Part shown: piece by piece, positions 20,046 through 33,542 of the stretch
Position numbering within the stretch: position 1 is the stretch's first letter
How the letters are laid out: each line of letters begins with the position of its first letter
Origin: Deltaproteobacteria bacterium
GTDB lineage: Bacteria; Myxococcota_A; Polyangia; Polyangiales; Polyangiaceae
Direction: 5' to 3'
NCBI GenBank assembly: GCA_016875405.1
Contig: VGRJ01000041.1
Span: forward strand, 1 to 34,644
DNA length: 34,644 nt
The notes under the pieces: model-generated
Told to the model about the DNA's origin: nothing
Databases searched by the model: none
What the model saw: only the letters and a program-made list of their open reading frames with translations
Made by a program: the position numbers and the translations under genes

Positions 20046-20456
20046 ATGCCTACCTACAACTACGAATGCACGGCCTGCGGCCACGCCTGGGAGGCCGTCC
20101 ACTCGATGAAGGACAGCCCGCTCAAGGACTGCCCGAGCTGTCGCAAGGACACGGCGCGGCGTCGGATCTCTGGCGGCGGCGGCTTCATCTTGAAGGGCGG
20201 CGGCTGGTACAGCGACCTCTACGCGTCCTCGAAGCCACGCTCGGACGGCGGCTCGTCTTCGAGCGGCAGCGCGACCTCGAGCAGCAGCACCTCGTCGAGC
20301 GCGACCACCAACACGTCGTCCTCGTCCGGCAGTGGCTCGTCCGGCAGCAGCTCGTCCGGCAGCAGCTCGTCCGGCAGCAGCTCGTCCGGCAGCAGCTCGT
20401 CCGGCAGTGGCTCGTCCAGCAGTGGCTCGTCCAGCAGTGGCTCGTCGAGCGCCTGA
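20046..20456 (+). CDS. FmdB-type zinc ribbon protein with Ser/Gly repeat tail
   Basis: 136 residues. The start is set at MPTYNYECTACGHAWE, the usual FmdB/CxxC_CXXC_SSSS N-terminus. The zinc ribbon uses Cys9 and Cys12 (CTAC) and the CPSC pair near residue 33, followed by RRRISGGGGFILKGGGWYSDLY, the standard end of the domain. Family members are small putative regulatory proteins; a clear function is not established. The tail from about residue 65 is almost only Ser and Gly, with eight tandem 15-bp units encoding (Ser-Ser-Gly-Ser-Ser)-type repeats, much longer than the short Ser-rich end usual for the family. The gene is divergent from smc and converges with the TPR gene. Confidence 0.88.
   Translation: MPTYNYECTACGHAWEAVHSMKDSPLKDCPSCRKDTARRRISGGGGFILKGGGWYSDLYASSKPRSDGGSSSSGSATSSSSTSSSATTNTSSSSGSGSSGSSSSGSSSSGSSSSGSSSSGSGSSSSGSSSSGSSSA
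20325..20444 (+). repeat. 15-bp in-frame tandem repeat, 8 units
   Basis: Eight units of tccggcagcagctcg or close variants (tccggcagtggctcg, tccagcagtggctcg) lie within the FmdB tail. The four middle units are identical and the outer units diverged, as expected of slippage expansion from the centre. Each encodes five Ser/Gly residues. Confidence 0.93.
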
Positions 20457-32107: not shown

Positions 32108-32565
32108 AGCCCGAGGCGTGCTTCGCGAGGCTTCATGCTGTGCTCGAAGAGCGAGGCGTGCCGAAAGGAAGGGAGTCGAGCCTGTCCGCGTCGCCTCGGG
32201 ACTTGCGCGCCGAGCCGTCCGCGTTGCGGTCCATGAGGTAGTTGGCTGCGCTCCGGAGCGTGGCAAGGTTGCCCCGAGCGGCACGCCGAGCGGCCCCGCG
32301 AAGGCGAGGAGCGTTCGCGGCCCAGGCGGACTCGAGGACCGAAGCGCAACGCACAAATGGTGCGTGAGCATCGGAGCGCAGCGGCCAACGACGGCCGCGG
32401 CGCTCACACGCCGAGCGGCCCCGCGAAGGCGAGGAGCGTTCGCGGCCTAGGCGGACTCGAGGACCGAAGCGCAACGCACAAATGGTGCGTGAGCATCGGA
32501 GCGCAGCGGCCAACGACGGCCGCGGCGCTCACACGCCGAGCGGTCAAGGGTTCAACCCTCGAGAG
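32108..32565. other. Repeat-rich intergenic region
   Basis: 458 bp holding the 125-bp tandem repeat (described separately) and about 177 bp of upstream sequence. On the minus strand at about 32136-32275 one frame reads GNLATLRSAANYLMDRNADG then SARKSRGDADRLDSLPFG, which is protein-like in composition. It has no start except within the repeat and matches nothing I recognise, so it may be a gene remnant fused to repeat DNA. A short inverted repeat (AGGG-TTCAA-CCCT) lies at 32547-32559, next to the stop of the following gene. Confidence 0.5.
32285..32534. repeat. 125-bp tandem repeat, two full units plus start of a third
   Basis: Units at 32285-32409 and 32410-32534 are nearly identical; a clear difference is c/t at the junction after ttcgcggcc. 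A third unit begins gccgagcgg at 32535 and then diverges. Each unit contains two inverted repeats: CCGCGAA...TTCGCGG around an 11-base loop, and ACGCAC-AAATG-GTGCGT. There are no variable spacers and no CRISPR character. Confidence 0.92.
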
Positions 32566-33348
32566 TCAAGGGAGAGCAGCAGAGCCGGCGCAGCGAAAGC
32601 CAAGGTTGTCGCGCTGGTTCGAGGGAACGCCCCCGTCGCGGGTGGCGGAGCGGACGATCGACGGGTCGTCGCTGAGCCAGCCGCCGCCGCGGTCGACGCG
32701 GGCTGAGCCTGCCTGAGTCGACGTCCACTCCCAGACGTTTCCTGACATATCGTCAAGATCAAACGGCGAGCGGCCCTTGGGGTACGCGCCCACGGGGCAG
32801 GTGGAGCTGGGCTTGCCTTCGCCATAACGATTCCAGCAGAGCTGGTCGCTCGGCGCCGCGTTGCCCCAGGGAAAGAGGCGACCGTCCGTGCCGCGCGCGG
32901 CGTACTCCCACTCCTGCTCCGTGGGGAGGCGCAGGCCCTGGGCCGTGCAGTAGGCGTCGGCCTGGTCCCAGTCGACGCAGTTGATGGGGTGCTGCTCGCG
33001 CCCCGCGACGCCCGCGTTGCAGGTGTTCGTGAAGGTGCCCGCCGGCGTGCACTTGGCTGCCTTGACGCAGGCGGCGTAGGCCGCCGTCGTCACCTCGGTG
33101 CGGCTCATGCAGAAGGCGTCGACCGTGACCTGGCCGGCCTTCGCCGTGTTCTCGTCGTCGCCCATCGTGAAGGTGCCCGCGGGGATGAGGGCCATCCCTT
33201 GCTTGCACGTTGGCTTCGCTACCGGCGTGGGCTTCGCTACCGGCGTGGGCTTCGCTACCGGCGTGGGCTTCGCTACCGGCGTGGGCTTCGCGCATGCCGC
33301 GAAGCCGAGCCCCGCCACCATCGTCCCCACCAGGAGTTGCGTTCGCAT
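32566..33348 (-). CDS. Formylglycine-generating-enzyme-family (SUMF1) lipoprotein
   Basis: 260 residues from the ATG at 33348. The signal peptide MRTQLLVGTMVAGLGFAAC gives lipidated Cys19. Four KPTPVA repeats then form a stalk, encoded by an 18-bp tandem repeat. The SUMF1/FGE-sulfatase domain follows: CKQGMALIPAGTFTMGDDE, VDAFCMSRTEVTTAAYAACV, HPINCVDWDQADAYCTAQGL, LRLPTEQEWEYAARGTDGRL, DDMSGNVWEWTST and RDNLGFRCAG, all in family order. True FGEs convert sulfatase Cys to formylglycine using a Cys pair. Here GFRC has one Cys near the usual place, so catalysis is doubtful; many lipoprotein members of this family are non-enzymatic surface or binding proteins. The gene is bracketed by copies of the 125-bp-repeat core. 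Confidence 0.9.
   Translation of the reverse strand: MRTQLLVGTMVAGLGFAACAKPTPVAKPTPVAKPTPVAKPTPVAKPTCKQGMALIPAGTFTMGDDENTAKAGQVTVDAFCMSRTEVTTAAYAACVKAAKCTPAGTFTNTCNAGVAGREQHPINCVDWDQADAYCTAQGLRLPTEQEWEYAARGTDGRLFPWGNAAPSDQLCWNRYGEGKPSSTCPVGAYPKGRSPFDLDDMSGNVWEWTSTQAGSARVDRGGGWLSDDPSIVRSATRDGGVPSNQRDNLGFRCAGSAALP
33212..33283 (-). repeat. 18-bp in-frame tandem repeat, 4 units
   Basis: Four identical copies of ggcttcgctaccggcgtg (plus-strand reading), with a fifth partial copy at 33284 onward, encode the KPTPVA stalk of the SUMF1-family lipoprotein. Identity at third positions points to recent expansion. Confidence 0.95.
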
Positions 33349-33407
33349 GACGCGCGAGTATGCCGCCGCGCGAGGCCCCTGGGAAGGCGAGCCAGGAGCC
33401 GGCGCGA

Positions 33408-33490
33408 GGCCAACACCGGCCGCGGCGCTCACACGCCGAGCGCGCTGCTTTCCCGCGTGACCGCCGCGAAGGCGAGGAGCGTTCGCGGCC
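33408..33490. repeat. Isolated copy of the 125-bp-repeat core
   Basis: This segment carries the unit-junction sequence found in the array. The 26 bp at 33417-33442 match 32517-32542 exactly. After a 19-bp insertion, the gccgcgaa...ttcgcggc hairpin arm follows (about 33464-33490; 8-bp stem here). The orientation is the same as in the array, on the other side of the lipoprotein gene. Confidence 0.85.
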
Positions 33491-33542
33491 AAAGCTCCAT
33501 CCGGTCACCGGAGGCGCGTAGAACACGGCGCCGAGCGGCTGT

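Follow-up and report, generated by a model that had tools for sequence, protein, structure and literature searches.

We found that the gene for an FGE-fold lipoprotein-like protein in the window (the whole analysed stretch of 34,644 nt, contig C41 of genome G000) is very likely a target of a diversity-generating retroelement (DGR), which would have rewritten 33 variable codons of its variable region (VR). This nature of the gene, missed in the initial annotation, is indicated by the substitution pattern, the protein fold and intact DGRs in genomes of the same family. The locus as a whole very likely has two layers, the DGR-rewritten target gene and a small mobile palindrome standing behind stop codons. 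The host genome is a draft assembly of 5.02 Mb in 218 contigs (99% complete). The coordinates of all features are collected in Table 1.

Table 1. Features of the probable DGR target gene and the surrounding repeats (positions in the window).
Feature	Position	Strand	Remarks
Coding sequence (260 aa) of the FGE-fold lipoprotein-like protein, starting MRTQLLVGTMVAGLGFAAC-AKP...	32566..33348	-	stop codon 32566-32568; PF03781
DGR target variable region (VR), RVDRGGGWLSDDPSIVRSATRDGGVPSNQRDNLGFRCA	32587..32700	-	differences from close paralogues almost exclusively at codon positions 1-2, zero synonymous; motif of same-family DGR template repeats
18-bp in-frame array, AKPTPV units	33208..33291	-	linker between N-terminal cysteine and FGE domain; 4.7 copies, 98% matches
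Inverted repeat TCGAGGGTTGAACCCTTGA, candidate post-VR hairpin	32544..32562	-	directly after stop; same or nearly same in C19, C172, C36
Repeat unit nearest the gene	32407..32543	-	core hairpin 32449-32514; in gene orientation 5' end abuts TTGA
Second tandem repeat unit	32282..32418	-	core hairpin 32324-32389
Incomplete repeat on the upstream side	33408..33442	-	corresponds to unit nt 1-35 as read in gene orientation, 94%
Incomplete repeat on the upstream side, containing hairpin A (CCGCGAA...TTCGCGG)	33464..33490	-	100% over 27 nt
Block common to the window and contig C19:1-1001	32518..33490	-	82%; repeat bounds both sides

The gene product is probably a surface lipoprotein with a formylglycine-enzyme (FGE)/C-type-lectin fold. 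Its SUMF1 domain corresponds to the Pfam family FGE-sulfatase (PF03781, E = 1.5e-45), and the start of the protein is shared with its paralogues at an identical MRT. The AlphaFold2 model of residues 50-260 (pLDDT 93) matched the structures of FGE (Z 27), of the Treponema denticola protein TvpA (2y3c; Z 25.6 over 193 residues) and of Mtd, the variable protein of the Bordetella phage BPP-1 DGR (Z 15.8). The protein thus combines this fold with a VR at its C-terminus. TvpA and other FGE-type DGR variable proteins have the same FGE fold, with the ligand loop at the C-terminus holding the variable codons (sequence match to the window protein E = 1.5e-10); here, in contrast, we are dealing with a paralogue family without a detectable reverse transcriptase (RT) or template in the genome. 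The window protein lacks the two catalytic cysteines that an FGE enzyme (SUMF1) has in its C-terminal loop; they are replaced in the alignment by S and I. The 18-bp repeat expansion reported in the initial annotation was confirmed; the linker in which it lies is not expanded in the paralogues on contigs C19 and C172. Other short tandem arrays, with 9-, 12- and 15-bp units, occur in the window at positions 2-241 and 20321-20446.

Altogether 38 FGE-domain matches were revealed in this 5-Mb genome, most of them without the VR pattern. Viral contigs from IMG/VR (L287-L289) also encode FGE relatives, which share 43-44% identity with the window protein. The C19 paralogue (L004, G000:C19), whose VR lies around GGSWGCVDPSCAR, has Cys-x4-Cys exactly at the aligned FGE catalytic cysteines (GGSYMCHRSYC), possibly the result of chance sampling by the DGR.

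Five related genes of G000, located on contigs C41, C19, C172, C16 and C36, end in a common motif. When the copies from C41, C19 and C172 were compared over the 33 codons preceding GFRCA, we found 18-21 differences at first and second codon positions, 1-2 at third positions and no synonymous codons, and the 11 codons that follow the VR were identical in all three. The preceding ~160 codons of the same genes contain 10-19 synonymous differences, so that the contrast with the VR and its tail is significant (Fisher p = 0.0004-0.01). Among the seven VRs compared, A was present in 35 of the 58 variable columns and in only one of the 56 invariant ones. Such a pattern (changes at codon positions 1-2, no synonymous changes, an identical tail) is explained by copying from a common adenine-rich template. 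The C16 and C36 copies are noisier, with third-position changes, and the latter looks frameshifted.

Direct counterparts of this pattern were found in two genomes of the same family belonging to other genera (G018 and G019). They contain intact DGRs composed of a VR gene, an RT with the GxxxSQ motif and an AAC-rich template that reads RGGSWNNNNPSNVRAANRNRNTPTNRNNNLGFRCA or similar, and their target genes carry the same VR motif as the window gene. In the three template-VR pairs, all 16, all 19 and all 20 differences, respectively, fall at template adenines (55 of 55 in total). The template of the host genus was probably also AAC-rich, reading like RGGSWNNDDPSNVRSANR, and the window copy appears to have been rewritten after the paralogues diverged. 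Ordinary positive selection acting on a ligand-binding loop after duplication, with no retroelement involved, would also place variable codons in the FGE/C-type-lectin loop and would agree with the lack of RTs in the genus assemblies. We nevertheless regard it as very improbable given the absence of synonymous changes from the VR and tail of genes that carry them elsewhere, the near absence of A from invariant columns and the fact that in same-family genomes the same motif forms a template/VR pair with purely adenine-directed changes. If the gene is a DGR target, as we believe, its variability is mainly due to template-directed mutagenesis of the 3' end.

The adenine-directed pattern indicated for this family and the inverted repeat behind the VR recall the BPP-1 DGR (PMC3240598). 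The latter differs in its GRNA loop: the loop of the candidate hairpin described here has 3 nt (TGA or TGG), and no RT is located nearby. Nor is the hairpin conserved between genera, since genomes other than G000 retain just its right arm, TTGAACCCTTGA.

Searches of the five genus genomes (G000-G004) with the RVT_1 profile and tblastn revealed no DGR-type RT, and searches of G000 with the VR and the inferred template recovered only the five VR copies. A match in G004 (L091, G004:C11:4320-4580) was rejected as a DGR RT, being a broken, stop-containing fragment with a QGG..SP motif, by eye of the group II intron type. It should be kept in mind that all the genus genomes are draft assemblies, with one genome per species; the missing RT could therefore be an assembly or binning gap, as repeats and VR/template pairs break assemblies. 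Either the system was lost after it had homogenized the VRs, or it acts from a mobile element that escaped binning. The second variant, a DGR still alive in trans on a plasmid or phage missing from the assembly, with the genus keeping a panel of remote targets, is a sub-case of the DGR explanation, and we consider it somewhat less likely than not. It agrees with the presence of 5, 7 and 9 VR matches in G000, G001 and G004, respectively, all without an RT, with the lack of synonymous VR drift between close copies, which implies recent overwriting, and with the location of one VR gene beside a Rep-like protein on the 4.5-kb contig C172. It fits less well with the decay of some VR copies (C36) and with the lack of a template in the phage, plasmid and IMG/VR collections.

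The VR gene on contig C172 (L269, 4533 bp) adjoins genes for a weak Rep_1/IS91-zinc-like (HUH-like) protein and an AAA ATPase, and it is possibly a DGR target carried by a small replicon; the contig had no match in the plasmid collection. Our literature search on orphan DGR targets found nothing specific, and a published DGR survey states that its own approach could not see remote targets (PMC8144416).

The second layer of the locus is formed by the repeats around the gene. As described in the initial annotation, the gene is flanked on one side by two 125-bp units, and all copies on both sides are in direct orientation. The two units, 32282-32406 and 32407-32531, differ by a single mismatch (32323 C/T). 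The 26-bp exact match at positions 32517 and 33417, spaced by exactly 900 bp, was also found, along with a third match at 32392. Longer still is the exact 27-bp match (hairpin A) that connects 32296 and 32421 with 33464. Of the related core copy proposed for the other side, only partial copies are present: instead of a whole unit, there are two separated pieces upstream of the gene, and a covariance-model match spans 33452-33538 (E = 6.6e-4 genome-wide). The 125-bp unit folds much better than its dinucleotide shuffles (z = -4.7, 0/200). The genome search suggested in the annotation revealed hairpin A, with up to two mismatches, at nine genome sites and its reversed control at none; hence, the repeats are not due to chance.

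Using BLAST and a covariance model, we detected about 16 sites with 18-21 copies (at least 18) in G000; for 10 of the 16 sites, the distance to a contig end is no more than 1.3 kb (p = 1.4e-6), and the copies are therefore probably under-counted. Within the order, the core model matched 18 of the 57 genomes. Most relatives contained 0-1 copies, while at least 91 copies each were found in G008 and G075 and 50 in G068; three genomes belonging to another family had 23-35. Outside the class, one of 61 genomes was matched, with seven matches, and the repeat is nearly absent elsewhere in the phylum. Thus, the repeat is dispersed genome-wide and in relatives, contrary to the two outcomes envisaged earlier, that it occurs only here or reflects simple local duplication.

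The repeat unit has a length of about 118-130 nt, with the ends GACCGC...GCGGTC. Stem sequences differ among the copies from six genomes of the family, while their pairing is kept: in an alignment of 20 cores from these genomes, 89.4% of the cells are paired and 16 of 18 pairs show a double compensatory change. The covariation score was 0.468, compared with 0.144 for shuffled alignments; with slid partners it did not exceed 0.115. Many copies fold as a single rod (z down to -9.1). No credible match was found in Rfam, and our literature search on such repeats in myxobacteria gave nothing specific. Two known structures were considered and rejected: (i) the intrastrand triplex motif of the E. coli type (PMC4666352), whose consensus differs from that of the repeat, and (ii) integron attC sites, suggested by the placement at stop codons and the varying stems. 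By eye, the ends lack an RYYYAAC...GTTRRRY core, and the copies stand behind unrelated dispersed genes.

In gene orientation, the G000 copies are located behind the stop codons of different genes. A co-oriented gene lies directly upstream of 32 of 45 copies in G008 (p = 0.003; genes called by a simple ORF rule). We compared the flanks of 50 complete copies from G008 and G075: TGA or TAGA stands before 27 of them and GA before 35, and TC follows 37; the part between the flanking GA and TC comprises 116-120 nt, and no clean target duplication could be read. One copy is inserted into the P12 helix of the RNase P RNA gene (L192:1234-1760; G008:C20:33957-34483). At one orthologous gene end, the element stands directly behind the TGA in G075 and is absent in G008; the intergenic DNA has diverged here, and neither a clean insertion scar nor a target duplication could be read. 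A second orthologous site is occupied in both species by their own versions of the repeat (GGGGCC/GGCCCC versus GGCGGC/GCCGCC), which suggests homogenization or re-insertion.

Taking together its dispersal, covarying structure, position and one presence/absence site, we interpret the repeat as most probably a small mobile palindrome, non-autonomous and comparable to ERIC and RPE, although unrelated to these in sequence. ERIC/RU-1 (127 bp) and RPE (105-146 bp) are likewise dispersed small palindromic repeats with long stem-loops, for which fusions to RNA genes have been reported (PMC2229807); the family described here differs in its sequence, freely varying paired stems, strong stop-codon placement and occurrence in Polyangiaceae relatives. 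The earlier suggestion of a mobile or REP/BIME-like element is supported as to mobility, given the dispersed family, the presence/absence site and the RNase P copy, and is not supported as to the link with RAYT and the REP size. REP/BIME sequences associated with RAYT are also short dispersed intergenic palindromes, but classic REPs have a 20-40-bp unit with a GTAG or CGTC tag (PMC3733652), compared with about 120-130 nt and different ends here. The RAYT/TnpA-REP transposase anticipated nearby was not detected: no Y1_Tnp protein was found in G000, G001, G003-G006 or the copy-rich G008. Movement would depend on a transposase not linked to the repeat so far, and behind genes the repeat may be passive or mRNA-stabilizing.

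Strong covariation, gene-sense orientation with stop-codon adjacency and the site occupied in two species could also point to a cis-acting RNA or terminator kept in place by selection and not mobile at all. We find this unlikely in view of the patchy copy number between related genomes (from 0 to at least 91), the insertion inside RNase P RNA, the presence/absence at an orthologous site and the tandem copies.

The mobile palindrome and the DGR target meet at two related loci. The C19 gene copy has the same repeat-gene-repeat layout as the window copy, and the homology between the two starts and ends inside the repeats, as expected if repeats bounded a duplication. It is therefore plausible that the gene block was duplicated via the flanking or tandem repeats. 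At both loci the post-VR sequence TTGAACCCTTGA is closely followed by the repeat, while in G001 and G004 it is followed by other DNA, so that the repeat was probably added in the G000 lineage. Although they supply homology around the target gene, the repeats do not belong to the DGR. That the repeat belongs to the DGR target site itself, as the hairpin required behind the VR, could be supposed from its position ~20-35 nt behind the stop of three VR genes (C41, C19 and C107) and from the need of DGRs for a hairpin there (PMC3240598). The distribution of the repeat largely refutes this, the least probable of the explanations considered: it stands behind many unrelated genes, is abundant in G008 and G075, and is absent at the VR genes of G001, G004, G018 and G019.

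According to the two-layer explanation, a template RNA would be reverse-transcribed with errors at adenines and the mutated copy would replace the 3' ends of the target genes, the window copy having been rewritten after the paralogues diverged. The RT and template would then have been lost or would act from an unbinned mobile element. The mobile palindrome would fold as one long rod hairpin and settle just behind stop codons, its tandem and flanking copies giving homology for duplication of gene blocks. A more far-reaching version, which we put forward with considerable reserve, is that a chromosomal panel of DGR targets in a bacterial genus is kept diverse by a retroelement that arrives on a mobile element and acts in trans, and that some of these targets are bracketed by mobile rod hairpins, members of a new family present across the order, which help to duplicate them as gene blocks.

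Targets with a DGR mutational signature in a genus whose five genomes contain no DGR RT make the choice between action in trans and recent loss directly testable. The repeat family, large, strongly covarying and absent from Rfam, provides a clear model for studying how a small mobile element is selected for its structure, more than for its sequence, and for insertion where it does no harm, directly after stop codons.
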